This document shows positions 7,910-24,577 of a stretch of 24,577 nt of DNA, piece by piece. The notes under the pieces were generated by a model. The model was not told the origin of the DNA. It saw only the letters and a program-made list of their open reading frames with translations, and did not search any database. The first letter of the stretch is position 1, and each line of letters starts with the position of its first letter. A program made the position numbers and the translations under genes. Source of the DNA: a virus; IMG/VR virus record IMGVR_UViG_3300020203_000097, positions 1-24,577 of that record; one strand, 5' to 3'.

Positions 7910-7921
7910 TGGGAGAATCAC

Positions 7922-8779: not shown

Positions 8780-8798
8780 TTAACCTAAGGGGAATATG

Positions 8799-9602: not shown

Positions 9603-9649
9603 TTTCATTTTCGATTTGGCTAAGCCAATAGTAGAGGAACTAAAAACAA

Positions 9650-10054
9650 ATGAGTGAATCTCTGAATGTAAATATCGTAACTTACCAACTTGAGTCCGCT
9701 ATCGTTGTTGGTGATAGTTTTCAAGCATTGGTGTTAAAAGCACCAGTGAGCGCCAATGGTGGTGCTATCCGAATTGTTGATGCCTACGTGGTCAATGGCG
9801 CGGCAACAACCGCTGGAACTGGCTGGAGCGTCACATTGCAGAATCGTGGTACTACTGGTGTGGTTAGCGCGGTTGCAATGTCCGCATTGGCGGGTGGTAC
9901 TGGTAGTCCGTTTGCACTCAATACACCCCAACAGTTCACGATCACCGCGCCTATCCTAAAAGCTGGTGAATGGCTGGGATTTGTGAAGAATCAAACCAAT
10001 ACTAGCGCTCCAGTGAATGGTCAATTGGTGATTCATTACTTGAATGGCGTATAG
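9650..10054 (+). CDS. Probable capsid decoration/cement protein
   Basis: This 134-residue protein is rich in Val, Thr, Ala, Gly and Asn, has no Cys, and looks all-beta (TYQLESAIVVGDSFQALVLKAP, then GEWLGFVKNQTNTSAPVNGQLVIHYLNG). It lies directly after the capsid genes and before a strong terminator, where head decoration proteins are usually found. The best ribosome binding site, AGAGGAA, is rather far (about 13 nt) from the ATG at 9650. The function is inferred from position and composition; a small tail or fibre protein is the alternative. Confidence 0.55.
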   Translation: MSESLNVNIVTYQLESAIVVGDSFQALVLKAPVSANGGAIRIVDAYVVNGAATTAGTGWSVTLQNRGTTGVVSAVAMSALAGGTGSPFALNTPQQFTITAPILKAGEWLGFVKNQTNTSAPVNGQLVIHYLNGV

Positions 10055-10078
10055 CCCACCCACCACCAATATACACGT

Positions 10079-10105
10079 AGTCCCTAGCAATAGGGACTTT
10101 TTTTT
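10079..10105 (+). terminator. Rho-independent terminator ending the head operon
   Basis: An 8-bp perfect stem, AGTCCCTA (10079-10086) with TAGGGACT (10091-10098), a 4-nt GCAA loop and a run of eight or more T. It separates the head genes from the glycosyltransferase cassette. Confidence 0.9.
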
Positions 10106-10123
10106 ATACTTTTGTGCTATAAT
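10095..10123 (+). promoter_or_regulatory. Promoter of the glycosyltransferase cassette
   Basis: An extended -10, TGCTATAAT (10115-10123), starts 9 nt after the terminator's T-run. The only -35 candidate at the right distance, GACTTT (10095-10100, 17-nt spacer), lies in the terminator itself. Terminator and promoter are thus fused back to back, resetting transcription before the inserted genes. Confidence 0.6.
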
Positions 10124-10162
10124 TTAGGTATCGGAAAACACACACAAGCGGATGTAAAACAC

Positions 10163-11305
10163 ATGGCTAAAATAATGATTCACTCAAACGCAATATGGGC
10201 AAGTACGGGTTATGGTGTGCAAACTGGATTGCTTGCCAACGCGCTTGCACGGGATGGACACACGGTAACAAATAGCGCCAATTATGGCTTGCACGGTAGC
10301 CCTATAAACGTCAATGGCATTGAGGTTATTGGTGGTGGTAAGGACGTGTGGGGTAATGATGTAATAAAAGCCCACCAACAGTTCTATCAAGCTGATGTTA
10401 CTATCGGCTTATACGATATATGGGCAATGCAAGAGTCCGTGTTATCGTCACTGGAAAACTATTGGCATTGGTTGCCACTTGACCACGATCCCATAGTCCC
10501 TATGGTGATGAGCCGCCTACCACTTATCACGGGAATAATCGCTATGTCGGAATTTGGGCATAAGCAATTGTCGGATGTGGGTTTTGAGAGTACCTATATC
10601 CCACACGCCATTGACACAACCATTTTTAAGCCAATGGATAAATTAGAAGCGCGTACTATGGTCAACTTTCCACACGATAAATTTATCGTGGGGATGTTCA
10701 TGGCGAATAAAGGTTCACCATCACGAAAGAGATTTGACCAACAAATACGCGCATTTGCCATGTTCACACGCTCACACCCTGACAGTATGTTGTATATTCA
10801 CTCAGATATTACTGGTCATGGTGGTGATGACCTAAATCGGCTCATCGAATTGGCTGAAACACAATTCGCGGTTAAGCTGAACGTGCGATTTGTGAATCAG
10901 TATCGGTATGGTGCAAGCATGGTAAGCGCCAATGAGATTGCAACCCTCATGAACGCTTGCGACATAGTTTCAAATGCTACTGGTGGTGAAGGGTTTGGCG
11001 TGCCAATCATAGAAGCACAAGCGTGCGGTACACCCGTTATTGTGACGGATTTTTCTGCCATGCCTGAACTGGTGGTGGGTGGGTACAAAGTCGGATACAC
11101 CGATTTACAATACACCACACTTGAATCATATCAATGCAACCCGTCCGTAAAAGCCATTTTTGAAGCATTGGTCACTGAATGCTACACGGCTGAAAAGTCT
11201 GAGTTTAGACGACAACTCATCAGTAAGACCACGCACGAAAAATATGGCATTGATACCGTGTACGAAACTTACTGGCAACCGTTTATCGAAAGAGTGTCAA
11301 AATGA
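10163..11305 (+). CDS. Glycosyltransferase, GT4-like (GT-B fold)
   Basis: I start this 380-residue protein at the ATG at 10163; the longer frame begins in the promoter. It shows the hallmarks of GT-B retaining glycosyltransferases. There is a Gly-rich N-terminal loop (WASTGYGVQTGLLANAL, residues 12-28). The sugar-nucleotide site is EGFGVPIIEAQACGTPVIVTDFSAMPELV at 276-304, with the E-x7-E pair Glu276 and Glu284. The start of the second domain is HDKFIVGMFMANKGSPSRKRFDQQIRAF. There is no signal peptide or membrane segment, so it acts in the cytoplasm. It overlaps the next glycosyltransferase by 4 nt. Substrates cannot be read from sequence; virion proteins or host surface glycans are the likely targets. 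Confidence 0.88.
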   Translation: MAKIMIHSNAIWASTGYGVQTGLLANALARDGHTVTNSANYGLHGSPINVNGIEVIGGGKDVWGNDVIKAHQQFYQADVTIGLYDIWAMQESVLSSLENYWHWLPLDHDPIVPMVMSRLPLITGIIAMSEFGHKQLSDVGFESTYIPHAIDTTIFKPMDKLEARTMVNFPHDKFIVGMFMANKGSPSRKRFDQQIRAFAMFTRSHPDSMLYIHSDITGHGGDDLNRLIELAETQFAVKLNVRFVNQYRYGASMVSANEIATLMNACDIVSNATGGEGFGVPIIEAQACGTPVIVTDFSAMPELVVGGYKVGYTDLQYTTLESYQCNPSVKAIFEALVTECYTAEKSEFRRQLISKTTHEKYGIDTVYETYWQPFIERVSK

Positions 11306-12048
11306 GCAAAAACAGTGTGGTACATCCCACGTCCTACCGAATTGGCGTGCGTCCAAAGAATCACATCAGTGTGATTTTGCCTAGCCGTAACGCTAACCCT
11401 GATGAGCTATCGCGTGCCATTGAGTCTTGTATCGGCTTAGGTGTGTCGGTGTGCCTATGGTTTGACCACGATTATGATGAGCCACCCCATATTCCCAACG
11501 TTCTTTATAACCGATTGGTGAATGTTGGCATGGGTAGAGTAGGCAAAGTGCAAGCCATGAACAACGCGTTGGCAATGGTCAAAACGCCTTACTACCTGTA
11601 CTTAGGTGATGACGACTATTTGGGGGCTGGCATTCTGGAACTAGCTGATGCCCTTGCCCAACGTCCTGAATGCAGTTTCGCCTACGGGTTGCAACGCTTT
11701 ATCGGCGCACGCAATGATGATGTGCAAGCACGCCAATATCATGGCGGGGAATTGTATCACTCTAACGTGCCACTGAACGCATTGCTATACAGAACGGACG
11801 TGGCGCGTTCTATCGGCTATGATGACAACATTCACAATATTGAGGGTGTGGGCAAGCCCGAAGATTACGACTTGCTTTTGTCTCTGCATGAACTAGGACA
11901 TAACGGGATTGCAGTTCCCACGCGCAACGTGGTCATATACTACACCCTGTCATTTACCCGTGAATGGGCAAAAATGCAATCAGAAATAGCACAAGTAACC
12001 GCTCAATTCAAACGCAAGCACCCACGTTTTATCGGTTCATCCCTATAG
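11302..12048 (+). CDS. Glycosyltransferase, GT2-like (GT-A fold)
   Basis: This 248-residue protein is translationally coupled to the previous glycosyltransferase (ATGA overlap). It has a GT-A nucleotide-binding start (HISVILPSRNANPDELSRAIESC, residues 21-43), a repeat helix with KVQAMNNALAMVKTPYYLYLGDDDY in which Asp103-105 form the DXD metal site, and PEDYDLLLSLHELG at 186-199 giving the likely catalytic Glu187/Asp188. It has no membrane segments, so it is soluble. The pair probably builds or extends one glycan in two steps. The ribosome binding site is weak, consistent with coupling. No polymerase or flippase gene is nearby. Confidence 0.85.
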   Translation: MSKNSVVHPTSYRIGVRPKNHISVILPSRNANPDELSRAIESCIGLGVSVCLWFDHDYDEPPHIPNVLYNRLVNVGMGRVGKVQAMNNALAMVKTPYYLYLGDDDYLGAGILELADALAQRPECSFAYGLQRFIGARNDDVQARQYHGGELYHSNVPLNALLYRTDVARSIGYDDNIHNIEGVGKPEDYDLLLSLHELGHNGIAVPTRNVVIYYTLSFTREWAKMQSEIAQVTAQFKRKHPRFIGSSL

Positions 12049-12060
12049 AAGGAAAACATC

Positions 12061-12627
12061 ATGGCACGGATTGGTATGGCAAGTCTCATTCTTGAACTGC
12101 GTAATTTGGCGCAAGCTGGCAACGCCGATTATGTCCTGAACTCTGTCACATACTGGACGGATGACCAACTGCAATCGGCGTTGGACGTGTGGCAGTACCA
12201 GAATTACAAAATCCCACTGGATTATATAACTGATTCTAGCACGGACTATCGGCTACCTACCCGCATTGAACGTGCGGGTTTGAATAGCGGTTTTTCGGTG
12301 ATGAATGCTGATGGTAATGTGGTAAGCGCGGTACTCTATAGCATAAATTATGATTCTAGCGTCTTGACCTTCACCACTGCACAAAATGGGGTAGCCTATA
12401 CCGCCAACTACCGTTCATATAACTTGAACAATGCGGTAGCGGACGTGTGGGGAATTAAGGCTGGCTACTTTGCCGATTTGGTATCGTGGGCAAGCGATAA
12501 CCATAGAGTAGATTTGGGCAAACAGTATGAGAATGCGCTTGCCATGCAACGCAAATTTGCAAACCTGACAAACGCCATTGTTTTTTCAAGACGTTTTCGC
12601 ACGGATGAGGTTAATTATGAGGATTAG
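12061..12627 (+). CDS. Head-tail connector/adaptor protein (putative)
   Basis: This 188-residue protein has AAGGA 8 nt before its ATG. It begins with helical segments (ASLILELRNLAQAG and TDDQLQSALDVWQYQN), followed by a beta-rich centre and a C-terminal helical run (NAVADVWGIKAGYFADLVSWASDNHRVDLGKQYENALAMQRKFANL). The last pattern resembles adaptors that dock under the portal. Position before the head-closure and neck genes supports an adaptor. Sequence alone does not identify the family, so confidence is moderate. It overlaps the next gene by 11 nt. Confidence 0.6.
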   Translation: MARIGMASLILELRNLAQAGNADYVLNSVTYWTDDQLQSALDVWQYQNYKIPLDYITDSSTDYRLPTRIERAGLNSGFSVMNADGNVVSAVLYSINYDSSVLTFTTAQNGVAYTANYRSYNLNNAVADVWGIKAGYFADLVSWASDNHRVDLGKQYENALAMQRKFANLTNAIVFSRRFRTDEVNYED

Positions 12628-12979
12628 CCCTAAGCAACTGGACTCAATGCGTGCGTTTGTAAATGGTACTCTGCCTGATACATGCACCATTAGGGCATAT
12701 AGTAGTGTCTCTGATGGCGCGGGTGGGCTTACCAACACCCTAACCGTTGGGGTTGTATCGGCTTGCCGAATCGATCCATCAGGTTCTTCGATACAGCTGG
12801 ACATAAAAGCAAGTGGTGAACGGCTTAGGCGCATGTGGATGATTACGCTACCCGCAACGGTTGTAATCAGTAAAGCAAGCGTCTTTACCATCAATGGCGC
12901 AAATTATGAGCCGATAAAAATATATGATGGTCATTCATGGGATGTAAGTTCCCGTGCTGAAATTGTGGAAACAGAATGA
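12617..12979 (+). CDS. Head-closure (stopper) protein (putative)
   Basis: I start at the ATG at 12617, with GAGG six nt upstream, giving 120 residues; the longer frame from 12578 has no site. The product is a small beta-barrel-like protein (TCTIRAYSSVSDGAGGLTNTLT-VGVVSACRID, then WMITLPATVVISKASVFTINGANYEPIKI), a layout shared with SPP1 gp16-type stoppers that seal the filled head. The final sequence DVSSRAEIVE is also typical of that group. It overlaps the preceding gene by 11 nt and the following one by 4 nt. Confidence 0.65.
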   Translation: MRISPKQLDSMRAFVNGTLPDTCTIRAYSSVSDGAGGLTNTLTVGVVSACRIDPSGSSIQLDIKASGERLRRMWMITLPATVVISKASVFTINGANYEPIKIYDGHSWDVSSRAEIVETE

Positions 12980-13329
12980 GTACCATCACCATAAACCGCA
13001 AGCACTTTGATAACATCAACATCGAAGAAATTTCGGTTGTCGTGATAGAAGCGTTTGCGGATGTGATGGTTGCGGAAATTGTTGATAACTGGTCTCCAAC
13101 ATCACCTTCATCCCCACATACTGCACCCGCCATTGACACAGGACGGCTAAACCGCGAAACAAGACGCGCCAAAGTCATGCGGATGCGATTAGAATTCGGC
13201 ACACCCTACGCAGTATTTTTAGAGTATGGGACGCGTAGAATGTTGCCACGTCCATTTGTAAGACCAGCGTTTTACCGTGCGTTAAAAAGTGACGTGCTGG
13301 CTAAACGGCTCAAAAAAGAACTGGAATAA
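12976..13329 (+). CDS. Neck/tail-completion protein, HK97 gp10-like
   Basis: This 117-residue protein overlaps the previous gene by ATGA. The C-terminal half carries the family signature TGRLNRE (55-61), then FGTPYAVFLEYGTRRMLPRPFVRPAF (74-99). These Tyr-x-x-x-Leu-Glu-Tyr-Gly-Thr and Arg-Pro-Phe-x-x-Pro-Ala blocks are highly characteristic of gp10-like neck proteins. It sits between stopper and tail terminator as expected. Confidence 0.85.
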   Translation: MSTITINRKHFDNINIEEISVVVIEAFADVMVAEIVDNWSPTSPSSPHTAPAIDTGRLNRETRRAKVMRMRLEFGTPYAVFLEYGTRRMLPRPFVRPAFYRALKSDVLAKRLKKELE

Positions 13330-13331
13330 AG

Positions 13332-13373
13332 GCGTAGACACAACGTGTACACCCGTAGACAAATTGTACACAC
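13332..13373. repeat. Two tandem imperfect 21-bp repeats (operator-like)
   Basis: The unit [GC]CGTAGACA followed by a TGTACA-containing palindrome occurs at 13332-13352 and 13353-13373, with 15 of 21 positions identical. The two TGTAC cores are 21 bp apart, two helical turns. They fill the 66-bp gap before the tail terminator gene. Confidence 0.55.
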
Positions 13374-13404
13374 CTTATCGGCATAATAATAAAGGATGCA
13401 CCCC

Positions 13405-13818
13405 ATGAACTTACCTGATGTGGACTACGGAATTTATCAAAAACTTATCGCAAGTGCCACCATCACAACGCTTGTCGGTGGTGCAGTTACCCCACGCATT
13501 TACAATTTGCAAGCACCGATACAATCGGCGTTGCCCTATATCGTCTTCTACCATAATGCGGGTGGTTTTGACAACCTTACGCCACGTGGGGAATACACTT
13601 TTGATTACCGTGTAGAATGCGTTGCAGATTCAAGACAAGTGTGCTATACTGTTGCCAACGCGTGCGCTACCCACTTGCACAACAACGATATTCCCCTCAC
13701 TGGTTACAGCAACTATAGCACCAAAATAGGGCAAGTCTATTCGTTCATCGAAAATGACAATGGCAAGCAATATTGGCGCAAGGGTTTTGACATCAAGATA
13801 AGATATTCTATAGAATAG
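13405..13818 (+). CDS. Tail terminator protein (DUF3168-like)
   Basis: I choose the ATG at 13405, 8 nt from AAAGG; the frame's earlier ATG at 13396 overlaps that site. The 137-residue product has the order typical of tail terminators: a short N-terminal helix (IYQKLIASATITTLVGG), then PRIYNLQAPIQSALPYIVFYHNAGGF, a central YTFDYRVECVADSRQVCYTVANACATHL and a final beta strand WRKGFDIKIRYSIE. It forms the hexameric ring that stops tail-tube growth and joins the tail to the head. A promoter for the next gene lies inside it. Confidence 0.8.
   Translation: MNLPDVDYGIYQKLIASATITTLVGGAVTPRIYNLQAPIQSALPYIVFYHNAGGFDNLTPRGEYTFDYRVECVADSRQVCYTVANACATHLHNNDIPLTGYSNYSTKIGQVYSFIENDNGKQYWRKGFDIKIRYSIE
13622..13650 (+). 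promoter_or_regulatory. Internal promoter upstream of the major tail protein
   Basis: TTGCAG (13622-13627), a 17-nt spacer and TATACT (13645-13650), with TGC giving an extended -10. It lies inside the tail terminator gene about 180 bp before the major tail protein gene, a product needed in many copies. Coding constraint makes chance possible. Confidence 0.45.
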
Positions 13819-13828
13819 GAAAAAATCA

Positions 13829-14260
13829 ATGGCAACTAACGCAAGTAATCGTTACACAGGTGAACTTTTGCATATTTCGTTTAAGGGCGTGGTCTTACAA
13901 GCAGACTTCCGCTCAGTGTCGGTAACAGAATCTACGGATACAGTGGACGTTAGTGCGGGTGCTTCACGTGCGCGTACTTACATCCGCACACTGAATGCCG
14001 CTGAAATTACCATCGAATATTTAGAACAATTGACAACCGCGGGAAGCGCTATTCGTACCGCGTTGGCATTGAACGCTGATGGTACTCTGATTTACGCTCC
14101 TGAAGGAACTGCCGTAGGCAAACCACGCTATTCCTGTATCGCAATGGTTACAGGTGTGGATCGCACATACCCCTATGATGACATTGTTTCGGTATCTGTG
14201 AATCTTCTACGTGATGGTGCATGGATTGCTCATTACGAACAATTGGCAAGCGTATTCTAA
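13829..14260 (+). CDS. Major tail (tube) protein
   Basis: This 143-residue protein lies between the tail terminator and the chaperone frames, the fixed place of the tube subunit. It is beta-rich (GELLHISFKGVVLQADFRSVSVTESTDTVDVSAG) and has a long loop and helix region (AAEITIEYLEQLTTAGSAIRTALAL), then VSVSVNLLRDGAWI, like the tail-tube fold shared by siphoviruses. AGGA lies 10 nt before the ATG. It is shorter than lambda gpV and has no added Ig-like domain. Confidence 0.82.
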   Translation: MATNASNRYTGELLHISFKGVVLQADFRSVSVTESTDTVDVSAGASRARTYIRTLNAAEITIEYLEQLTTAGSAIRTALALNADGTLIYAPEGTAVGKPRYSCIAMVTGVDRTYPYDDIVSVSVNLLRDGAWIAHYEQLASVF

Positions 14261-14300
14261 TCTCAATTTTATCTCACATATAACCCTATAAGGCATTAAC

Positions 14301-14588
14301 ATGACAAAAGCAAAAACACCCACCAACAAAAAACAAGAATCTGCACCGATTACCGAAAGTGGCTATATCGTCAATTTGGAATCGTGGCGCATGAAGGATT
14401 TTCGCAAGTTTACGCAAGTCGCTAAAGATGGCGATCTTGATGGTATGATTGAGATGGTAGACGCGGTTACAACTTTCCCTGATGGTGTTGATTCAGTGGA
14501 TGAGATGGAACTTGAGCAATGGGGGGAACTGGTAGAATTGGTCAATGACAGATTGATTGCTAAGTTTCGCACTAAAAAAGCAGACTAG
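14301..14588 (+). CDS. Tail assembly chaperone, short form (gpG-like)
   Basis: This 95-residue protein has a basic start (TKAKTPTNKKQ), then YIVNLESWRMKDFRKFTQVAKDGDLDGMIEMVDAVTT and an acidic helix (SVDEMELEQWGELVELVNDRLIAKF). Sequence layout, position before the tape measure and the overlapping second frame match the lambda gpG/gpGT pair, which coats the tape measure during tail assembly. The frame ends in ACT AAA AAA GCA GAC TAG. The A6G tract at 14574-14580 just before the stop is the likely slippage site into the following frame. TAAGG precedes the ATG. Confidence 0.8.
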   Translation: MTKAKTPTNKKQESAPITESGYIVNLESWRMKDFRKFTQVAKDGDLDGMIEMVDAVTTFPDGVDSVDEMELEQWGELVELVNDRLIAKFRTKKAD

Positions 14589-14790
14589 CCAATCAATTTT
14601 TATCGCCATTGCCTACAACAGAACAAGCCACGTTAGCGAAGAACTTTCGTGGCTTATTCAGGAACTGCAACTGGCAGAAAAGTACGGATGGACGTTGGAT
14701 TACATCCGTGCTATGGATTTAGATGACTTGCTGATGACAATCGGCTATCTGGACGGTATGAATACCGCTCAAAGTAACCACAAAAAGTAA
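14581..14790 (+). CDS. Tail assembly chaperone, frameshift extension (gpT-like)
   Basis: The second chaperone frame runs from about 14581 to a TAA at 14788-14790 and reads QTSQSIFIAIAYNRTSHVSEELSWLIQELQLAEKYGWTL-DYIRAMDLDDLLMTIGYLDGM. It has no good start: only a TTG at 14557 without a Shine-Dalgarno. Relative to the short form it is in the +1 (equivalently -2) frame, so a +1 or -2 slip on A6G would make a fusion of about 165 residues. The usual lambda arrangement is -1; the -1 frame here is also open to about 14720 but gives an unstructured Trp/Arg-rich sequence. The extension is not an independent gene. Confidence 0.7.
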   Translation, partial: QTSQSIFIAIAYNRTSHVSEELSWLIQELQLAEKYGWTLDYIRAMDLDDLLMTIGYLDGMNTAQSNHKK

Positions 14791-14799
14791 GGCGTTAAT

Positions 14800-17673
14800 G
14801 TGGAAACAGCAAAGTTAACCGTACTATTTACAGCCGATACCAGTGACTTTGAGCGTGGCGCTGATCGGATAGACAGAGAACTAAAGCGTACTGAGAAGGG
14901 TTCTGATAATCTCTTCGATAAAATGAGTTCTGGCTTTAGCAGTATCGGCGCAAATATCGCAAGTCTATCCGTGCCACTTAACGGACTCTTCGCGGTTGCC
15001 ATTAACGCCGCGGTTGGTTTTAATGAGCAAATGGTCAATATACAATCGGTAATGGGCTACACCACCGAAGAGACAGATGCAATGGGTAGGTCAATATTAG
15101 ACCTATCCACAACATCTAAATTTGGCGCTACGGAAATAGCTTCGGCAATGTATGATGTTGTTGGTGGTGTGGCTGATGCAACCCAGCATTTTGATATTTT
15201 GAGTGAGTCCGTTGCATTGGCAGAGGCGAATAACGCCGATTTAACCACCAGTGGCAAGGCGCTTGTTTCCACTTTGAACGCCTACGCGTCACAAGGCGTT
15301 AAAGTGACCAGAATCTCGGACGTGATGACGCAAGTGATTAAGCAAGGGGTAGGCACGCTTGATGAGCTATCCGCTTCATTTGCCAAAACCGCGGGGTTAG
15401 CTTCACCATTGGGGATTAGTATCGAAGAATTGGGCTTGATGTATGCGGATATGTCCACGCGTGGCTTGACTTTCGCACAAGCGGGTACGCAAATAGAAGC
15501 GCTATTGGGATCGTTGCTAAATCCCACTGCGAAAGTAACCGCGGCGTTTGCCACAATGGGATTAACTCAAGAACAAGCAATGGCGCAAATTGCCGATACA
15601 GGACTCATTGCATTCATTCATGATATGACAGCCGCGGGGGTAGACCTTACCACTGTCTTCACGAACAGAGAAGCGTTAATGGGTGCGCTTGCTTTAGCGG
15701 GTATGGATAGTGATGCGCTAAGAGAGTTTGCAATTAACGCATGGGGTGCAACGGAAGCTACCCGCTTTTTCGCTAGACAGGCTACTCAGTTCAAAATAGA
15801 TACCCTGATGGGCGATTTGAACGATTTGGCGATTGTGATTGGTGATGCGCTTCTACCAGAAATAGATAAATTTTTGGATAAGTTATCCCCACTAGTCCAG
15901 AAAGTAACTCAATGGGCAAGTGAAAACCCTGAACTAATTAGACAGGCTTTTCAACTTAGCTTAGGGTTATCGGCAATGGCTTTAAGCATGACAGTGTTAG
16001 CCGTCTCTTCGGCAATAATCGCAACCGCGTTTAGAACACTGGCTACTGGTGGTGCATTGCTCAATATGGCGTTTATATTGCTGAAAACATCAACAACCGC
16101 TATCGGTGTAAGCATGGGTGTGTTAGCCTTACCACTTGTGGCACTCATTGGCGCGGGTTTGGCATTGGCGCACGTTATTGGTGGTAATGAAGGCATTGTA
16201 GGGACATTCAATAAAGCCATAACCGCGGCTAGGCAATTGGTAGAATTGGGCATTATGTTCGTCAAGCAAGCGTTTGAGGATTTTGTCGCTTCACCATTGT
16301 TCGCCACGCTTAGAGGGTTGTTTGAGAGTGCGTTAACCATTGGCGCGGGTGTGTTAGAAGGCATTATCGGTTTTTTCGGTAGTGTCATAACTGAGATTAC
16401 GAATTTCACATCTTCACCACTGTTCGCCACGATTGTAAGCACGTTTGAGGGTGCGTTCAAAATCGGCGAAACTGTCTTACAAGGGGTGGTAGACTTTTTC
16501 GGCAATGTCATAACTGCAATCGTGGGATTTACAGAATCTGAAACATTTGCCACGATACTCAGTGTGTTTGAATCGGCTTTTAACTTAGGCGTAACCGTGT
16601 TAACACTGGTAACGGATTTTTTCGCAAGTGTCATAACCGCGATTGTTGACTTTACGCAATCGGAAACATTCGCTACAATTATCGGCGCATTTGAAACTGC
16701 GTTTGCTTTTGGTGTAAGCATTGTAGAAGGCGTTGTGGCGTTCTTTGGGCTTGTGGTTGCTGAAATTCAAAAGTTCATAGATTCACCATTGTTCACTGCA
16801 ATTAGTGACACTTTCGAGAACGCATTTGGCTTAGTCGGTGACATTATTAAGATGTTTATCGGCACAATTGAAACTATCGTCAACACGATAAGGGACGTTA
16901 TAAGTAGTCCAGTGTTTCAAGAAATTCTAGCTAAGTTTGTGGAAATATTTGAGGTAGGCATAACCGCGATTGTTAACGGCTTAACTACCGTGATAACGGG
17001 TGTGATTGCAATCATACAAGCCGTTGTTGATAGTCCAGTGTTTCAACTGTTGAAAGATATATTTGAAACTACCTTAAACGCAATTGGCGAATTCCTGACA
17101 GCGTTTTTTCTGGTAATTGACACTATTATCACGAAAATCCGTGAGGTTGTTGACTCTGATGTTTTCAAGACTCTTGAGAACATATTCAAGACCACATTTG
17201 GCGCAATCCAAACATTTGTAGAAGGCGTTATCGGCATTATAACTGGACTCATAAATGGGATAGGCGATGGTATAAAGGCGGTTGGGGATGAAATAAACCG
17301 ACTGAGGGGAATAAAACCGATAGACCTTTCGATTAACACGGGTCCCGCCCCTGCAATGCACACGGTAGACGTATTATCGAACTTTATAACGGGGCATCCA
17401 GCCAACGCAACACCGCCACCAGCACCGCCACCGCGCACAGGGCGTGGACGTGCTACGGGTGGTCGTGTGCTGGCAGGACATTCATACATGGTAGGCGAAA
17501 TGGGACGGGAACGCTTTACACCTGATGTAGGCGGTATGATAACCCCTAATCGGAAAATAGATGGTGGTGGTAAGGGTATAAACATCAGTGGCACGGTAAA
17601 CATCTATGGCGTACAGGATATAAACTCACTGCATGACCAATTGGTTGTCATTGCCCAACAGAGAGGGTTTTGA
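14800..17673 (+). CDS. Tail tape-measure protein
   Basis: This 957-residue protein starts with GTG at 14800, TAAGG 7 nt upstream; the ATG at 14798 is out of frame. It sets tail length and is ejected with the DNA. Residues 1-380 contain the conserved tape-measure head (VLFTADTSDFERGADRIDREL, FNEQMVNIQSVMGYTTEETDAMG, LDLSTTSKFGATEIASAMYDVVGG). A hydrophobic stretch follows at about 383-465, probably the membrane-inserting region. From about 498 to 830 there are eight repeats anchored on Ser-Pro/Glu-x-Phe with a 41-residue step. A Pro-rich linker (867-888) leads to a Gly-rich tail. No lysozyme or peptidase domain is evident. Confidence 0.93.
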   Translation: METAKLTVLFTADTSDFERGADRIDRELKRTEKGSDNLFDKMSSGFSSIGANIASLSVPLNGLFAVAINAAVGFNEQMVNIQSVMGYTTEETDAMGRSILDLSTTSKFGATEIASAMYDVVGGVADATQHFDILSESVALAEANNADLTTSGKALVSTLNAYASQGVKVTRISDVMTQVIKQGVGTLDELSASFAKTAGLASPLGISIEELGLMYADMSTRGLTFAQAGTQIEALLGSLLNPTAKVTAAFATMGLTQEQAMAQIADTGLIAFIHDMTAAGVDLTTVFTNREALMGALALAGMDSDALREFAINAWGATEATRFFARQATQFKIDTLMGDLNDLAIVIGDALLPEIDKFLDKLSPLVQKVTQWASENPELIRQAFQLSLGLSAMALSMTVLAVSSAIIATAFRTLATGGALLNMAFILLKTSTTAIGVSMGVLALPLVALIGAGLALAHVIGGNEGIVGTFNKAITAARQLVELGIMFVKQAFEDFVASPLFATLRGLFESALTIGAGVLEGIIGFFGSVITEITNFTSSPLFATIVSTFEGAFKIGETVLQGVVDFFGNVITAIVGFTESETFATILSVFESAFNLGVTVLTLVTDFFASVITAIVDFTQSETFATIIGAFETAFAFGVSIVEGVVAFFGLVVAEIQKFIDSPLFTAISDTFENAFGLVGDIIKMFIGTIETIVNTIRDVISSPVFQEILAKFVEIFEVGITAIVNGLTTVITGVIAIIQAVVDSPVFQLLKDIFETTLNAIGEFLTAFFLVIDTIITKIREVVDSDVFKTLENIFKTTFGAIQTFVEGVIGIITGLINGIGDGIKAVGDEINRLRGIKPIDLSINTGPAPAMHTVDVLSNFITGHPANATPPPAPPPRTGRGRATGGRVLAGHSYMVGEMGRERFTPDVGGMITPNRKIDGGGKGINISGTVNIYGVQDINSLHDQLVVIAQQRGF
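16291..17277 (+). repeat. Eight 123-bp (41-residue) repeats in the tape-measure gene
   Basis: The anchor Ser codon of the SPLF/SETF/SPVF motif lies at 16291, 16414, 16537, 16660, 16783, 16906, 17032 and 17155. Six of the seven steps are exactly 123 bp and one is 126 bp. The third and fourth units are closest to each other at DNA level (TCTGAAACATTTGCC and TCGGAAACATTCGCT). Confidence 0.85.
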
Positions 17674-17674
17674 T

Positions 17675-19177
17675 ATGATTAAATTCTATGTGGATTGGAA
17701 TAAAAATAGCAATTTCACGGGGACGTATGACGATATTACTGCTGATGTGGTGAACGCCGATTGGTTTTTAGGCGCACGTTCACCGTTTCAATCTGTGTGT
17801 GATGAATTGACATTGCGCTTGACGCTGAAAAACACCACTGGAAAATATAGTCCAGAAAATTCCAGTAGTGTTATAGCTGGCTTGATTAGACCATATTGCC
17901 GTGTGCGGATTGTGGATGATACCACAAGTACCGTGATGTGGAACGGCTACCTAGATTTTCCAAACATAAACTGGCAACCCGCGGGGTTGTTCACGGGTAA
18001 GGGACATATTACCTTTAGCGCAATCGGCGCTAAGGGACTCTTAGAACGCATAACGGTTGCCTTACCTGAATACGCGTCCGCTACTGGTGATGAGATTATT
18101 GAGGACGTGCTAGAATTGGCACGGGTATTTATGCTCATTGAGGGAAGCTGGCTTGTCGGTGAAGCTGGCTTTAGCGAATTAGGCGTAACCACTGTTTTAC
18201 AGACTAACGACAAGTGGCGCACGTTTGACAAGGGTTTGACCACATTCACGGATTTTGGTGGTGGTCGCGTCAATGCGTGGTCAATTATTGCGGACGTGGT
18301 ACAGACAGAACGCGGGTTTTTCTATATTGATAGAACTGGACGTTACATATTCAAAAACCGCCACAATACCTACTTGTCGGATGCTATCGGCATAGCAAAA
18401 AGCGAAACACGCACGCGTGGGATTGGCTACAAGTATGGGGATTTGATGGTAAATCTTGTAACCGTTACTGGTGTGCCTAAGCGGACACTACCATCCGAAT
18501 TATTGTGGACGTTACCCGCGCCATTGACTATTTCACCATCCAATACAATCATCATTGACGCGAAACTGCGTAGAACTACTGGTCAATTCGCAAGCGCCAC
18601 ATCAGTTACCGAAACTGTTGTCTATTCGCAAGGTGATGCGAATATCACCATTACCGCCAATGGTGGGATTGCCACGCTTGAGATTTTCAATTCGGGCAAA
18701 GTTACAGCAATTATCAGTAGTATGACTTTAGAAGGTTCACCATCTTTTGAGCAAAATCAATTGGTGGTGCAAGTGGATGACCTTGCGTCACAAGACGAAT
18801 TCGGCAAACGCGAAAAGTCTCTGTCACTGAACAATGTTTCGGAATACAGGGACGTGATGTATACCGCGCACATGGAATTGCTTAGGTTGCCACTGCGTGG
18901 ACGCGCCACAAGTATCACCATGCTACGTGAAGACAGTGGCAGTAACCACACTGAGATTGTTAGCGGACTCAAGATAGGGGATTTTGTGCAAGCAACTTTA
19001 ACCGATACCCTCTACCACACTGGACGCTATATCGTTATCGGCGAAAATCACTCATGGCAACAATCTAATGTGCATACCGCCACGTTTTTCCTAGAGCCTG
19101 TATCTCAAGTGGGTTTTGTGCTGAACGTTACTGGTCGCAACGAACTAAATGGCGCTAAAACTATTTTGATTTATTAG
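17675..19177 (+). CDS. Distal tail/baseplate hub protein (putative)
   Basis: I start this 500-residue protein at the ATG at 17675, 7 nt from GAGAGGG; the frame is open to 17633 inside the tape-measure gene but has no site there. The N-terminal block IKFYVDWNKNSNFTGTYDDITADVVNADWFLGARSPFQ and the following TLKNTTGKYSPENSSSVIAGLIRPYCRVRI are common in tail-tip proteins encoded right after the tape measure. The body is beta-rich, with a late hub-like segment (LRLPLRGRATSITMLREDSG, GDFVQATLTDTLYHTGRYIVIGENHSWQ). It probably forms the ring at the tail end to which fibres attach. No hydrolase motif is seen. Confidence 0.7.
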   Translation: MIKFYVDWNKNSNFTGTYDDITADVVNADWFLGARSPFQSVCDELTLRLTLKNTTGKYSPENSSSVIAGLIRPYCRVRIVDDTTSTVMWNGYLDFPNINWQPAGLFTGKGHITFSAIGAKGLLERITVALPEYASATGDEIIEDVLELARVFMLIEGSWLVGEAGFSELGVTTVLQTNDKWRTFDKGLTTFTDFGGGRVNAWSIIADVVQTERGFFYIDRTGRYIFKNRHNTYLSDAIGIAKSETRTRGIGYKYGDLMVNLVTVTGVPKRTLPSELLWTLPAPLTISPSNTIIIDAKLRRTTGQFASATSVTETVVYSQGDANITITANGGIATLEIFNSGKVTAIISSMTLEGSPSFEQNQLVVQVDDLASQDEFGKREKSLSLNNVSEYRDVMYTAHMELLRLPLRGRATSITMLREDSGSNHTEIVSGLKIGDFVQATLTDTLYHTGRYIVIGENHSWQQSNVHTATFFLEPVSQVGFVLNVTGRNELNGAKTILIY

Positions 19178-19194
19178 CATGAAGGGACATTCAC

Positions 19195-19836
19195 ATGCCT
19201 AGAACTACACCCGCTACACTTGTACCCGCTACCGCTATAACGGCTGATATTTGGAACGATCAGGTAGGGGATAATTTAACTCATCTTTTGGGACTAACCG
19301 CAAGCGGTACAGCATTAACCGATTTAACTGGTGGTGGTGAAATTATTAGCCTACCCCTAGTAGGTGGTGTGTCCACAATCCAAACCCGCGCCACAGCTGG
19401 ATTATTCACCACAATTGATTTGACGACTTTGAACGGGTATGCACAAGCCTATGATGTTGAAATTTCGTTTACCCTTCGGTCAAACGCCGCCGCCCTTAAC
19501 GACAACATGTCGTTGGTTTTGAACGGTGATGTGACTGCCGCCAACTACTACAACCAACGTGCAGGGTCAAATGATGGTGCAGGTCTAATCGCAGAGGGTG
19601 TTGATGCGTCAATGTCCTTCATAACCGCTAATAATGGCATTACCCATAGCTTCTCACAAGGTGATTTTGTTATATACAATTTCAAAAACGCGTCCATCAG
19701 TAAAAACATCCCCATGAAAGTAGGCGGGTTGTATTCGGCAAGCCAATCACGTTTGGATTTGGGCTTGATAACCTACCGTCCGCAAATTGCATCACAACGG
19801 TTAATTTTGCGTTGGTTACAGGCACGGGTTTTATGA
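19195..19836 (+). CDS. Minor tail protein, with a candidate -1 frameshift near its end
   Basis: This 213-residue frame has AAGGGA 7 nt before its ATG. It starts TPATLVPATAITADIWNDQVGDNLTHL, typical of tail appendage proteins, and continues as a beta-rich adhesin-like domain (LFTTIDLTTLNGYAQAYDVEISFTLRSNAAALNDNMSLVLNGD). The in-frame end (YRPQIASQRLILRWLQARVL) looks unnatural. The -1 frame is open from 19704 to a TAA at 19869-19871 and reads LDNLPSANCITTVNFALVTGTGFMTHSSIKVRFIV, a beta-rich end usual for this kind of protein. It stops exactly where the next gene starts. The heptamer T TTG GGC at 19758-19764 is in the correct phase for a -1 slip. Confidence 0.75.
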   Translation: MPRTTPATLVPATAITADIWNDQVGDNLTHLLGLTASGTALTDLTGGGEIISLPLVGGVSTIQTRATAGLFTTIDLTTLNGYAQAYDVEISFTLRSNAAALNDNMSLVLNGDVTAANYYNQRAGSNDGAGLIAEGVDASMSFITANNGITHSFSQGDFVIYNFKNASISKNIPMKVGGLYSASQSRLDLGLITYRPQIASQRLILRWLQARVL

Positions 19837-19871
19837 CACATTCTTCTATTAAAGTGAGGTTCATAGTATAA

Positions 19872-20540
19872 ATGCCATTAGGTGATGATTTGAGTGTACG
19901 CAACACAGGTGATTTAATCACAACCGCGATATACAATGAAATTATCGCGTCCGTCAATTTCGTATTGCGTGGGAATATGGTGGGTGCAATACAGGCTAAC
20001 TTTAGAACGACAAATATTGATGAGCATTGGCTACTTTGCAATGGCAACACTATCGGCGCGTCCGCAAGTGGTGCAACTGCACGTGCAAACGCTGATATGG
20101 CATTGTTGTATGGGTTATTGTGGGGTGCTACCACCAATGCAATCCTCATCATTCAGAATTCGGCGGGTACTGATACCACGCGTGGGCTTACTGCAACGGC
20201 TGATTTTAATGCCAACAAACGCTTGCCCTTACCAGATTTGCGAGGACGCACTATTATCGGCATTGACGGGACGGCTGATAGAATTGCGGACGCGTGGGCA
20301 AACGATCTTGGCGGTTTTGGCGGGTTGTCTACGCACACATTGACGGTTGCTCAAATGCCTAGCCATAGCCACGTTGGTACTTTTTCTGGTAGTATTAACT
20401 TTGCGGTTGCGGGTGGGGTAGGGGCGGCAAGTGGTAGTGGCTATAGTAACGACTCGATCGGCGCTACTGGTGGTAGTGCTTCACATCCTAATGTGCAACC
20501 GTCAATGGCGTTGTCTTATTTAATCTGTACGGGCGTATAA
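19872..20540 (+). CDS. Tail fibre protein with phage tail collar domain
   Basis: This 222-residue protein has the collar domain signature in order: WLLCNG (53-58), LPLPDLRGRTIIGID (118-132), HTLTVAQMPSHSHV (155-168) and the closing HPNVQPSMALSYLICTG (205-221). The segment between is Gly/Ser/Ala-rich (AGGVGAASGSGYSNDSIGATGG) and probably an exposed loop. It is short, so it is likely a tip or a small adhesin and not a full-length fibre. It probably contacts the host surface. The Shine-Dalgarno (GAGG, 12 nt upstream) is weak, in keeping with coupling to the previous gene. Confidence 0.87.
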   Translation: MPLGDDLSVRNTGDLITTAIYNEIIASVNFVLRGNMVGAIQANFRTTNIDEHWLLCNGNTIGASASGATARANADMALLYGLLWGATTNAILIIQNSAGTDTTRGLTATADFNANKRLPLPDLRGRTIIGIDGTADRIADAWANDLGGFGGLSTHTLTVAQMPSHSHVGTFSGSINFAVAGGVGAASGSGYSNDSIGATGGSASHPNVQPSMALSYLICTGV

Positions 20541-20555
20541 CGTAAAGGAAAAAGC

Positions 20556-21056
20556 ATGGATATAATTGCGATAGGAACACTTTTTGAGTCATTTGGTTTG
20601 CCAATCGGTATTGCTATCGCAATATTTGTGTTTTTGGTGAAGGTACAAGCGGACGCAAGTAAAAGCGATGAACGCAATGACAAAATCATAACTGGTCAAC
20701 TTGATATTAGCGTGCGCCAACTGGATATATTAGGTAAACAGACTAGCTTGATGGTAGAATTAGATGCCAAAACAAGTTCACAATTAAAATTGGCAAGCGA
20801 GGGTTTTAACCGCATGGATGAGAATCACAAGCTAACAACCCTAGAGGTTGTGGCTATAAAAACGCAGTTTGAAAAACTATTGCCAGCAATGGTAGCAATG
20901 CAGTGTACAATCACTGCCAACGATATTAACATGGGTGTTCTGAAAACGGACGTTGGCGCACTGCACGCAGAGATTACCACAATCGGCACAATCTTAACCA
21001 GTATTATCGGTATGCTGAATAATTCGGCAACCACTATAGAGGATGAAAACAAATGA
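20556..21056 (+). CDS. Membrane-anchored coiled-coil protein (holin or spanin candidate)
   Basis: This 166-residue protein has a single N-terminal membrane segment at about residues 4-28 (IAIGTLFESFGLPIGIAIAIFVFLV), followed by a polar, probably coiled-coil body (RQLDILGKQTSLMVELDAKTSSQLKL and NRMDENHKLTTLEVVAIKTQFEKLL). Position after the tail genes and 4-nt overlap with another small membrane protein suggest a role in lysis. There is no lipobox, and no endolysin is visible in the window. AAAGGA lies 8 nt before the ATG. A phage-encoded membrane tether is the alternative. Confidence 0.55.
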   Translation: MDIIAIGTLFESFGLPIGIAIAIFVFLVKVQADASKSDERNDKIITGQLDISVRQLDILGKQTSLMVELDAKTSSQLKLASEGFNRMDENHKLTTLEVVAIKTQFEKLLPAMVAMQCTITANDINMGVLKTDVGALHAEITTIGTILTSIIGMLNNSATTIEDENK

Positions 21057-21319
21057 GAAACATATATGCGTCTATCGCAATCATGATTCTGCTATTTTTT
21101 ACGCAGAATATTATCACTAGGGATGTTGCGGTAGCGCTTGCGCTCATCGTTTTCATCGCGTTTATTTTAGATTACTGGACGTTCATACCCGCGCCTATCC
21201 AGATACCCTTAAATCGGCTTGTGACGCGTTTTAAGGCTATCGTAGAAGGATTAGTGGCGAAGACAAAGACCACGCTAGACGATTTGGCATGGACTATTTT
21301 TAAGCGCTACCTGAAATAA
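21053..21319 (+). CDS. Small membrane protein (holin candidate)
   Basis: This 88-residue protein overlaps the previous gene by ATGA. It has two adjacent hydrophobic segments, at about residues 4-18 (IYASIAIMILLFFTQ) and 25-43 (VAVALALIVFIAFILDYWT), and a basic amphipathic C-terminus (NRLVTRFKAIVEGLVAKTKTTLDDLAWTIFKRYLK). Two membrane segments and a charged tail fit a class II holin. It is the last plus-strand gene and is followed by terminators. The lysis role is inferred from topology and position only. Confidence 0.55.
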   Translation: MRNIYASIAIMILLFFTQNIITRDVAVALALIVFIAFILDYWTFIPAPIQIPLNRLVTRFKAIVEGLVAKTKTTLDDLAWTIFKRYLK

Positions 21320-21325
21320 CAAAAT

Positions 21326-21345
21326 ACCCCTCTAGCGGGGTTTTT
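21326..21345 (+). terminator. Weak terminator after the structural operon
   Basis: CCCC (21327-21330), a TCTAGC loop, GGGG (21337-21340) and TTTTT, just after the stop of the last plus-strand gene. The stem is only 4-5 bp, so it is probably backed up by the stronger hairpin at 21385-21422. Confidence 0.5.
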
Positions 21346-21384
21346 AGGCTGGCTATTTTCTGTATCCGTTTGACGGGTAAAATC

Positions 21385-21425
21385 AAAAAGCAGTGTGCAT
21401 TTGTATCCGCACACTGCTTTTTTGT
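21385..21425. terminator. Strong bidirectional terminator between convergent operons
   Basis: A 14-bp perfect stem, AAAAAGCAGTGTGC (21385-21398) with GCACACTGCTTTTT (21409-21422), a 10-nt loop and T-runs on both strands. It can stop the plus-strand structural operon and the minus-strand accessory operon. Confidence 0.88.
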
Positions 21426-21431
21426 TTGTGT

Positions 21432-21491
21432 CACTTTTCGCCAATTTCGCAGACTATGCGAAAGTGAATGTTTTCCTAGACTATGCGAAAG
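21432..21491. repeat. Nested hairpin and 14-bp direct repeat
   Basis: AGACTATGCGAAAG occurs at 21451-21464 and 21478-21491. The first copy forms a hairpin, TTTCGCA (21445-21451) with TGCGAAA (21457-21463). The reverse complement CACTTTCGCATA is nearly the CACTTTCGGCATA found in the arms of the inverted repeat at 4301-4361. No gene lies in 21320-21531. Confidence 0.6.
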
Positions 21492-21497
21492 AGAGTC

Positions 21498-21521
21498 AAA
21501 CCCCTCGAATTCGAGGGGTTT
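21498..21521. terminator. 24-bp perfect palindrome at the end of the minus-strand operon
   Basis: AAACCCCTCGAA joined directly to TTCGAGGGGTTT, with no spacer, lies 10 bp after the stop of the last minus-strand gene. It may act as a hairpin terminator, but no long T-run follows on either strand, so a protein-binding site is also possible. Confidence 0.5.
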
Positions 21522-21531
21522 AGAATCATCC

Positions 21532-21897
21532 TCATGATCGGTAATTGTAGTCGTATTTGTATTCGTACTGAATTTCTTCGCCTTCACTCAGTTCATATAC
21601 GCATGGCGGTTCATCACAGTAATTGTATGTCAATTGGGGATCGCCATTGTATCTTGTTACGCGCACGTGTTCGCCACCTATATTCTCATATCTGCGACAC
21701 ACGAAAAAGCCATTACCAATTTTCGTGTAGGAAATTACGCCATTTTGTACCATAAATGTACAATCGGTAAGGTTTCCGTTATATCCCTCTTTCCAGTACG
21801 TGGGTGTTTGCGATTTATAGTCTCTTACAATTTGCGCCATTGCGATTATTGACGGGTTTTCTGAGTGTACGAATTCGTTAATTTCTTGAATGTTCAT
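21532..21897 (-). CDS. Small accessory protein, paralogue family member D
   Basis: This 121-residue protein is the last gene of the minus-strand block. It starts 1 nt after the stop of the preceding gene with GAGAG upstream. It shares a loose pattern with the three related genes at 21899, 22201 and 23075: a short N-terminal helix (MNIQEINEFV), an aromatic strand centred on Trp35 (PTYWKEGYNG), a Val-rich strand (CTFMVQNGVISYTKIG) and a late Tyr/Arg segment (RYENIGGEHVRVTRYN). It adds an acidic Tyr-rich tail (CVYELSEGEEIQYEYKYDYNYR). There are several Cys but no clear metal site. Function unknown. Confidence 0.65.
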   Translation of the reverse strand: MNIQEINEFVHSENPSIIAMAQIVRDYKSQTPTYWKEGYNGNLTDCTFMVQNGVISYTKIGNGFFVCRRYENIGGEHVRVTRYNGDPQLTYNYCDEPPCVYELSEGEEIQYEYKYDYNYRS

Positions 21898-21898
21898 G

Positions 21899-22201
21899 TT
21901 ATTTACTCTCTTCTATAGATTCATCAATAGGTAAGTGGTGGTATGTGACAAACGTTCTGCCTTCATTTTCAAACTCTCTTACAAGCACATTGTTTTCCAT
22001 GAGTTCATATTCGCGGTATTCCGAAACAAATGCGTTGCGGATGGTGTGAATAAGCCGTCCACGTCTTACGGTTGCGACATTTTCGGCGGGTTTTCCGTTG
22101 TGATATTCCGTCCAACGAAATTCATGACCTTCACAGTTCTTAACGACTTGCAACATTTGCGAATAGGACATTTTTGGCGCGTCTACGATAGGGGTATCCA
22201 T
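21899..22201 (-). CDS. Small accessory protein, paralogue family member C
   Basis: This 100-residue protein begins at an ATG overlapping the upstream stop by one base (TAATG), so translation is coupled. The core runs MLQVVKNCEGHEFRWTEYHNGKPAENVATVRRGRLIHTIRNAFV. The motif (K/N)-x-x-G-x-x-F-x-W-x-E, centred on Trp30, and the following V-x-x-G-x-(L/I)-x-H-x-I strand match the gene at 22201-22515 well. The ending VREFENEGRTFVTYHHLPIDE is acidic. It is probably a small alpha/beta protein. No catalytic motif is visible; the function is unknown. Confidence 0.65.
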   Translation of the reverse strand: MDTPIVDAPKMSYSQMLQVVKNCEGHEFRWTEYHNGKPAENVATVRRGRLIHTIRNAFVSEYREYELMENNVLVREFENEGRTFVTYHHLPIDESIEESK

Positions 22202-22515
22202 TATTTTCTCTCTTCTAAGCGAATTTCGCCTAATGCGGTTGCAAAGTCACTATAATTCTCATAGGCGGTTGTAATCACCATACCCGCCACAATCTCATAA
22301 CTGAAAATTGTGTAGCCGTACTGAGTAAAAATCGCATGGAAAATCGCACCTTGTGTAACGCTTACCGTGTGCGTCCGTTGGGACGGCTTGCGTCCCAATT
22401 CGATTAACTCTACCCATGAAAAGTCTTTGCCTTCATGGTTTTTGCCAATAGTTTCTAAAAGTAGTGGCGTTGGGGATGTGACAAATTCTTGAACTGCTTG
22501 TGGGATGATATTCAT
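22201..22515 (-). CDS. Small accessory protein, paralogue family member B
   Basis: This 104-residue protein has AAAGGA about 8 nt upstream of its ATG at 22515. It starts MNIIPQAVQEFVTSPTPLLLETI. The core GKNHEGKDFSWVELIELGRKPSQRTHTVSVTQGAIFHAIFTQYGYTIFSYEI is the clearest version of the shared family pattern, with Trp34 and the strand VTQGAIFHAI. The late segment TTAYENYSDFATAL aligns with TTEYRTHAEFELA of the gene at 23075. There is no signal peptide or membrane segment. The function is unknown; position in an early-type accessory block is the only clue. Confidence 0.65.
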   Translation of the reverse strand: MNIIPQAVQEFVTSPTPLLLETIGKNHEGKDFSWVELIELGRKPSQRTHTVSVTQGAIFHAIFTQYGYTIFSYEIVAGMVITTAYENYSDFATALGEIRLEERK

Positions 22516-22558
22516 GATGTTTCCTTTATGGGTTAATGGTGCTAAGGGTAGGATGGAA

Positions 22559-22888
22559 CTATTTTGACAAGTTTGATAACTTTAGGACGTTGTGGTAATT
22601 TCGGCGGTACTTTTCCACTGCAACGATATTTGTTTGGCGCAAAAGCGCCAACTCTTCGGCGTTGCAACCCCATGAGTAAATTTCTTCTATCGAACAAAAC
22701 CCGTTGCTTGATATGATGCTGATACTGTCATCACCTGAAACAAATACGCGTCCGTCCTTCATGTGGCAATCGGCGCTAATCCCGTATGAACGGGATGCAC
22801 TCTCTGCACGTGCGGTTGCTTGTTCGTAGGTCAAGCCACTGATGCACTCTTCTACGCCATTAAAAACGATTTTCACTGTGTAGGTCAT
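22559..22888 (-). CDS. Small hypothetical protein
   Basis: This 109-residue protein has AAAGGA 8 nt before its ATG. It begins with a beta strand (TYTVKIVFNGVEECISGLTYEQATARAESASRSYG) that gives a beta-turn-helix start often seen in small regulatory phage proteins. It continues with CHMKDGRVFVSGDDSISII and a helical end (NAEELALLRQTNIVAVEKYRRNYHNVLKL). It has four Cys (residues 14, 41, 65 and 74) but not in a recognisable zinc pattern. It does not share the tryptophan-centred core of its neighbours. Function unknown. Confidence 0.6.
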   Translation of the reverse strand: MTYTVKIVFNGVEECISGLTYEQATARAESASRSYGISADCHMKDGRVFVSGDDSISIISSNGFCSIEEIYSWGCNAEELALLRQTNIVAVEKYRRNYHNVLKLSNLSK

Positions 22889-22899
22889 GATTTTTTCCT

Positions 22900-23073
22900 T
22901 TAGATAATCAGATTTTGGATAAATAAGGCGCGTGCGGTTGCTTGCAAGCCGATTGTATCGGCTTTTGCGGGTACTCTGTCAAAACTGTATCGGTCTTTTT
23001 CTGGCTGGCTTGCCACGTCCGCTACCGCCAACAGTTCCTCAAAATCGGCACGGGAATTCTCAATATCGCACAT
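22900..23073 (-). CDS. Very small hypothetical protein
   Basis: I start this at the ATG at 23073 with GAGGA 7 nt upstream, giving 57 residues (MCDIENSRADFEELLAVADVASQPEKDRYSFDRVPAKAD...). A TTG at 23097 in the same frame lies inside the upstream gene and is less likely. The product is acidic, with a helix ADFEELLAVADVA near its start and a hydrophobic C-terminus (IGLQATARALFIQNLII). Its start is 1 nt from the stop of the upstream gene, so translation is coupled. Function unknown. Confidence 0.5.
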   Translation of the reverse strand: MCDIENSRADFEELLAVADVASQPEKDRYSFDRVPAKADTIGLQATARALFIQNLII

Positions 23074-23074
23074 G

Positions 23075-23368
23075 TTAGCGTCCTCTAGCCAGTTCAAATT
23101 CGGCGTGCGTGCGGTATTCGGTGGTCAAAACGCGTCCGTAACCATCCAACATGTATGATGAAAATCTTGTCTTTGATGAAGCGCTATGCTTCATCAGGAA
23201 AACTGTGTCGGATGTGACGAAGACATTGTACACGCTATCCGTACCGCCACGCACTTTGTTTTGCCATGAGAACTTGGCGTTGGCGTGGTAGCGTAGGATG
23301 GTGTTAATATTTTCGTAGGACGTATTTCCTGATTCTGCGAGTTCCGAAATTTCGGTGGGGATGTTCAT
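23075..23368 (-). CDS. Small accessory protein, paralogue family member A
   Basis: This 97-residue protein has AAGGA about 9 nt before its ATG. It shares the layout of the three genes at 21532-22515: MNIPTEISEL at the start (like MNIQEINEF of member D), INTILRYHANAKFSWQNKVRGG with Trp35, a strand YNVFVTSDTVFLMKHS, a turn, FSSYMLDGYGRV, and TTEYRTHAEFELA at the end (like TTAYENYSDFATA of member B). It is the most upstream of the four and is separated from the others by two unrelated genes. Function unknown. Confidence 0.65.
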   Translation of the reverse strand: MNIPTEISELAESGNTSYENINTILRYHANAKFSWQNKVRGGTDSVYNVFVTSDTVFLMKHSASSKTRFSSYMLDGYGRVLTTEYRTHAEFELARGR

Positions 23369-23870: not shown

Positions 23871-24577
23871 CTAGATTGTTATTTTGCCACTGCGGATTGC
23901 ATTCTGTACGACATTGATGGTCGTTTTACTTACCCCTATCACTGCTTCTAAGGACACGCATGTTTCATCAATTCGGTTTGGGTTGCTTTGGAAAAATGCG
24001 ACTACCGCACGTTTCTGCACCGACATTTTTCCGCTTCCTACGTTTCCGCTATTGTTGTTGCTTCCGCCAATTCCGTAGTTTCCGTGAATTCCGCCAATTC
24101 CGCCAATTCCGTCTGCGGAAATTCCGCCAATTCCGTATTTTTCCACCTTAGGTGGTACGGAAATTAGAACTTGCCCACTGGTTAGGCGTTGCCCACCACC
24201 ACTTGCCGATAACATCATGGCGTTACTGAGTTCTACGTCCGCAAAATTGTCACTGGTTTGTACAAGTTCACGTTTAATCACTGAACGCCAATCGGTGTAG
24301 CTCAATGAGTCTAGGATAGACTTGCGTGCTTTACCACCATTGCCTAAAACATTGGCATTCACTATTTCCGTTTTCAGGTAAGCGATAAAAAGTTTCTGAA
24401 AATCTGGATGTGATTCTGGCTTATTGTGCGCCATAGTCCACACATCTAACGCTTGCTTAAAATCTGCACTGTTTTTAGTGCGTGCCACAAGGCTATACAA
24501 AAACAGTGTTGACAAAATGTGTGAAAATATGATTGCAACTACTGGTGGTGAAATTGTCACACCCCAACTAAATATAT
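23871..24577 (-). CDS. Membrane protein with Gly-rich repeats and C-terminal HTH (runs off right edge)
   Basis: The minus-strand frame is open from the right edge to a stop at 23871; the GTG at 24560 is probably internal, because the upstream codons (IFSWG) are also open. A hydrophobic segment is seen at once (VTISPPVVAIIFSHILSTLFLYSLVA). A soluble helical domain (NSADFKQALDVWTMAHNKPESHPDFQKLFIAYLKTEIVN) follows, then a Gly/Ile/Asn-rich linker (KYGIGGISADGIGGIGGIHG). The C-terminal part reads RAVVAFFQSNPNRIDETCVSLEAVIGVSKTTINVVQNAI and looks like a helix-turn-helix. A membrane-tethered DNA-binding protein is suggested. It resembles the left-edge gene in having membrane segments and a hydrophilic part. 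Confidence 0.7.
   Translation of the reverse strand, partial: IFSWGVTISPPVVAIIFSHILSTLFLYSLVARTKNSADFKQALDVWTMAHNKPESHPDFQKLFIAYLKTEIVNANVLGNGGKARKSILDSLSYTDWRSVIKRELVQTSDNFADVELSNAMMLSASGGGQRLTSGQVLISVPPKVEKYGIGGISADGIGGIGGIHGNYGIGGSNNNSGNVGSGKMSVQKRAVVAFFQSNPNRIDETCVSLEAVIGVSKTTINVVQNAIRSGKITI
24062..24139. repeat. 9-bp tandem repeat array in the Gly-rich linker
   Basis: TTCCGNNNN units (most often TTCCGCCAA) occur in register at 24062, 24071, 24080, 24089, 24098 and 24107, then after a 6-bp slip at 24122 and 24131. They encode the Gly-Gly-Ile/Gly-Ile-Gly linker of the minus-strand protein and could vary in copy number. Confidence 0.8.

Follow-up and report, generated by a model that had tools for sequence, protein, structure and literature searches.

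The window is the whole 24,577-base stretch of DNA analyzed here, an IMG/VR virus record from a small, uncultured phage. Its plus strand codes for a primase-helicase, the large terminase (TerL), portal, major head protein, glycosyltransferases, tail proteins, and a tape measure protein. The closest terminases of cultured phages, those of Thermus phages, are ~30% identical, and cultured phages hold no match to the tail protein at 17633. Directly past the tail and holin-like genes begins a run of minus-strand genes. Its direction is opposite to that of the replication genes and of the virion genes, with which it converges. Four small genes of this run, A, B, C, and F, are the subject of this analysis. 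They are listed here with their neighbors.

21497..21522, minus strand: terminator-like hairpin after A, with an 11-pair stem and T only in part downstream
21532..21897, minus strand: paralogue A, 121 aa, the most diverged copy in the window
21899..22201, minus strand: paralogue B, 100 aa
22201..22515, minus strand: paralogue C, 104 aa, the hub of the family
22559..22888, minus strand: gene D, 109 aa, among the copies and not a member
22900..23073, minus strand: gene E, likely ATG start at 23073, 57 aa, among the copies and not a member
23075..23368, minus strand: paralogue F, 97 aa
23467-23835, minus strand: gene G, read from its sequence as having a lipoprotein-signal-like N-terminus (VMIVGCG) followed by an SH3-like sequence
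23871..24560, minus strand: gene H, upstream of the array in the same direction, with a hydrophobic N-terminus, Gly-Ile repeats, and an HTH-like C-terminal end

The four paralogues start with ATG and form a tight run on the minus strand, with the stop of C overlapping the start of B and only 1 nt separating B from A. SD-like purine stretches are found upstream of each of them. Terminator-like sites in the region number 5, against 4.5 expected by chance. Paralogue A is acidic (calculated charge ~-7) and carries a C-terminal tail rich in Tyr and Glu. In gene H, GGAATTGGCGGAATT-type repeats at 24040-24160 code for the Gly-Ile-rich stretch between the hydrophobic N-terminus and the HTH-like C-terminus.

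Relatives of this phage were sought using the major head protein, TerL, portal, primase, and tail proteins. The scan used short exact patterns, which miss distant kin, and returned one near-identical and one moderate relative from viral contigs and none from genome contigs. The near-identical relative, G002 (IMGVR_UViG_3300020192_000384), shares 98.7% identity across window positions 7708-22566. The moderate relative, G001 (IMGVR_UViG_3300037462_000451), shares the gene order of the window, and most of its core proteins are 47-66% identical to those of the window (TerL 58%, portal 60%, head protein 66%). Because the glycosyltransferase gene of G001 is divided between both contig ends, these phages probably have circular or circularly permuted genomes, in which the minus-strand run has the tail genes on one side and the primase on the other. 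On a circular genome, a minus-strand membrane-protein-like frame at 1-445 would lie next to gene H (23871-24577). When they were joined in silico, their reading frames disagreed and a stop fell at the junction, so the ends of the window may not be exactly contiguous.

In the same genome place and on the same strand as the window array, G001 holds one clear and one probable further copy.

L007:430-759, minus strand: R1, a clear member and relative of C (z 13)
L007:768-1103, minus strand: R2, a probable member with F as its best partner

The initial annotation, made from the sequence without searches, had described A, B, C, and F as divergent paralogues. Shuffle tests and leave-one-out profiles now bear this out and confirm, at the level of sequence, that the four are diverged paralogues of one family and that the duplication is real. 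In pairwise shuffle tests, B and C are similar at z ~10 and C and F at z ~9-10, while A is weaker (A-B z 3.5-3.9, A-F z 3.4-3.7). B and F show nothing direct in these tests and are connected through C. Between C and R1, BLASTP found 42% identity over 50 aa (E=2.5e-7). Leave-one-out HMMs were then run against 592 six-frame ORFs from seven phage DNA stretches, and in every run the withheld member was the top ORF outside the training set, with E-values of 2e-10 for C, 2.7e-7 for B, 1.6e-4 for F, 5.7e-4 for A, 1.4e-4 for R1, and 0.034 for R2. The next-best ORF reached E 0.1 or worse. Sensitive profile comparison, a check named beforehand, matched the C-type and F-type profiles across 89 columns with a probability of 92.8% and E=4e-7. 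Genes D and E gave no match to the family profile in the leave-one-out searches of the 592 ORFs, and profile-profile comparison of D with the family returned a probability of 0.2%.

One could argue that the four proteins do not form a single family and that their similarity is due to chance or to convergence of small alpha/beta proteins. The missing direct similarity between B and F, the weakness of A and R2, and the failure of A alone to yield a usable fold model would speak for this. It is nevertheless highly improbable given that every withheld member ranks first, that B-C, C-F, and C-R1 each stand far above their shuffles, and that the C-type and F-type profiles match as they do.

Some details of the earlier description held and others did not. 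A local match pointed out between TTAYENYSDFATA and TTEYRTHAEFELA is real and lies between C and F. The Trp at residue 30-35, proposed as a shared feature, occurs in each of the four window members and is missing from the members in G001. The late segment thought to be common to the four is not, since the C-terminus of B and A is different. The six members (A, B, C, F, R1, R2) have just two residues in common throughout, M1 and one Val, and no polar residue, acidic ones included, is conserved in all of them.

The place of R2 was less clear. By itself it did not match the four-member profile in hhalign, and its membership therefore rests on the withheld HMM test, its genome place, and the tree, which together make it a probable member of the family. 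The tree separates F and R2 from A, B, C, and R1 with support of 96/95 on very long branches, and gene order agrees with this split. Read together, the two point to an older pair of one C-type and one F-type gene, which probably predates the split of the window phage and G001, and suggest that the C-type gene was later copied in the window lineage to give B and A. The array would have grown by tandem duplication.

With the six-member alignment, AlphaFold2 gave a confident model of C with a mean pLDDT of 89.5 and a pTM of 0.81. In the predicted fold, two helices at the N-terminus are followed by a sheet of five strands and a helix at the C-terminus (H6-13 H17-27 E31-38 E45-53 E57-64 E67-76 E79-85 H88-103). 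F and the G001 copies share the sequence of this final helix, which A and B lack. Paralogue A modeled alone, without an alignment, gave an unusable result (pLDDT 32), and its low-confidence order of helices and strands, compatible with that of C, carries little weight. The refuting condition named in the initial annotation, predicted folds unrelated to each other, was examined with these two proteins, of which C alone folds with confidence. Foldseek of the C model against PDB and the BFVD viral models returned no match at E<=0.001, and among the matches listed the best TM over the query was <0.5. A weak similarity (probability 0.72) was seen to small alpha/beta proteins such as E. coli Ivy (1xs0), which for Ivy amounts to no match (TM-score 0.37, rmsd 9, E 0.35).

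The family libraries Pfam, NCBIfam, PHROGs, and PADLOC likewise held no credible match for the paralogues, in agreement with the initial annotation, in which no known family had been recognized. Nothing credible among catalogued anti-CRISPR or counter-defence families was found in Pfam, NCBIfam, or PHROGs, libraries in which the known anti-CRISPRs are incompletely represented. A tblastn search of cultured phages with C, R1, F, and B gave nothing below E ~3. The protein family is new to these libraries, even if arrays of this type are familiar in phages.

A few weaker candidates were considered and set aside. Profile searches of PDB returned designed helical proteins (E 0.0002 and up), which matched the N-terminal helices only, with no stretch passing alone, and endonuclease G at E 0.2 over a partial stretch. 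A further candidate was phrog_11025, a group of hypothetical proteins from Erwinia, Salmonella, and Proteus jumbo phages. It matched C only, and weakly (hmmscan E=0.01), yet C and one of its proteins, Erwinia phage Simmy50 gp221, scored z ~12 in shuffle tests. Diverged phrog_11025 proteins behaved inconsistently against C (z 0.4, 0.25, 3.0), no paralogue besides C matched gp221, and profile-profile comparison gave a probability of 0.5%. The match is most likely due to chance.

That the family consists of enzymes, for example a nuclease fragment related to Cas4/Csa1, is suggested by B, which matches PADLOC Cas4 at E=0.008 and 0.01 and Pfam Csa1 at E=0.1. We consider this very unlikely. Only one of the six members matches, weakly and after many tests, and the match covers positions 27-101 of the 266 in the Cas4 profile, close to its N-terminus. 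The family keeps no acidic or other polar residue, which leaves the catalytic residues of PD-(D/E)XK nucleases without counterparts, and the predicted fold of C, with its two helices, five strands, and final helix, is unmatched. With so little invariant and nothing polar among it, a conserved active site is unlikely for the family as a whole, and we infer that the paralogues are binding proteins rather than enzymes.

What, then, would such proteins bind? The location of the array bears on this question. In genome-wide BLASTP, nearly all plus-strand genes of the window have a relative in G001 at 30-70% identity, whereas among the eight minus-strand genes a credible relative was returned for C alone. 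The array therefore lies in the variable, accessory, and least conserved part of the genome. The family itself counts four copies in the window and two in G001. This matters for the idea that the paralogues are minor virion or assembly proteins encoded on the opposite strand, which would fit with a run lying directly past the tail and holin-like genes. However, the run is opposite in direction to, and convergent with, all virion genes, and the number of paralogues differs between the related phages (4 vs 2) while nearly every virion gene has a single counterpart in the other phage. A virion role is accordingly improbable.

The scarcity of invariant residues, the differing copy number, and a position apart from the replication and virion genes make contact with host proteins the likeliest role. 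We tentatively propose, at somewhat less than an even chance, a new family of small phage binding proteins that act on the host, in takeover or counter-defence. The array would be expressed early, as we assume from its position and direction; a promoter scan was uninformative. Each copy would stick to a host protein or assembly, either a defence component or some other machine, and block or redirect it, and the copies would have diverged to bind different targets or variants of a target.

Several observations temper this proposal. It comes with no target and no linked defence or counter-defence gene, and variable phage proteins of this size are found in many other roles. The initial annotation had seen in the repeated duplication and divergence the mark of anti-defence or host-takeover proteins locked in conflict with the host; no defence or counter-defence match survived, and fast change was not seen between the window and G002. 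Paralogues A and C carry 0 amino-acid changes against G002 and B carries 2, so that no ongoing arms race is visible, in a sample far too small to exclude one. Positive selection likewise left no sign among the window-vs-G002 changes, which are too few.

The proteins might instead be directed at competing phages or at the phage that encodes them, with superinfection exclusion or control of phage gene expression as examples, in concert with genes G and H. Mixed cassettes of such genes are common in phages. The same run holds the lipoprotein-like gene G with its SH3-like sequence (Pfam SH3_1, E=0.19), as well as gene H with its HTH-like end. This C-terminal end resembles an HTH-like gene upstream of the array in G001 (local score 45, z 4.0), whose protein has a weak match to HTH_24 (E=0.009, below the cut-off). 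A linked Aca-type HTH regulator gene is a feature looked for with anti-CRISPRs; each of the two phages has an HTH-like end encoded ahead of its array, below the cut-offs and not assigned to Aca. On the other hand, the four proteins, judged by eye, have no signal peptide, membrane segment, or recognizable DNA-binding motif, and G and H stand outside the paralogous set. We regard a phage-directed role as rather unlikely. Gene G on its own could be a surface or superinfection-exclusion protein.

For tandem duplication of genes with a host-directed role, one precedent comes from T4, in which the small counter-defence gene tifA was amplified in tandem under ToxIN during an evolution experiment (PMC9391042). 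The window array is comparable in that a small phage protein has been multiplied by recombination in an accessory part of the genome. It differs in that its copies are old and diverged, those of T4 having arisen in the experiment, and the likeness is in size and duplication, with no sequence relation to TifA found. A second precedent is SegB, a GIY-YIG enzyme that drives the amplification of anti-defence genes (PMC13096335). In G001, a GIY-YIG endonuclease gene (L011:10913-11365, minus strand; Pfam PF01541, E=8e-6) lies directly downstream of R1 and so adjoins the R1/R2 pair, where a role in copying is putative by analogy; no such gene stands beside the array in the window. The fuller version of the host-directed proposal, in which proteins of a new fold form a duplicating set of inhibitors, each copy against a different host defence protein or variant and with the GIY-YIG endonuclease aiding multiplication, is a doubtful one.

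Diverged paralogue arrays in accessory regions are good candidates for host-directed inhibitors. Should the paralogues prove to be inhibitors, they would form a new family with a predicted fold unmatched in PDB and viral models, from phages that have only distant cultured kin. The set to be screened is small and concrete: the four window copies and the two from G001.

Outside the array, two further features of the genome stand out. Each of the tandem genes at 7922-8779 and 8796-9602 matches the one major head protein gene that G001 has (66% and 49% identity), and the major head protein thus seems to have been duplicated in the window phage. The tape measure protein is 957 aa long in the window (14800-17673) and 663 aa in G001 (L011:5264-7255), a difference that predicts tails of different lengths. 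Its gene also has the most differences between the window and G002 of any gene (83 nt).
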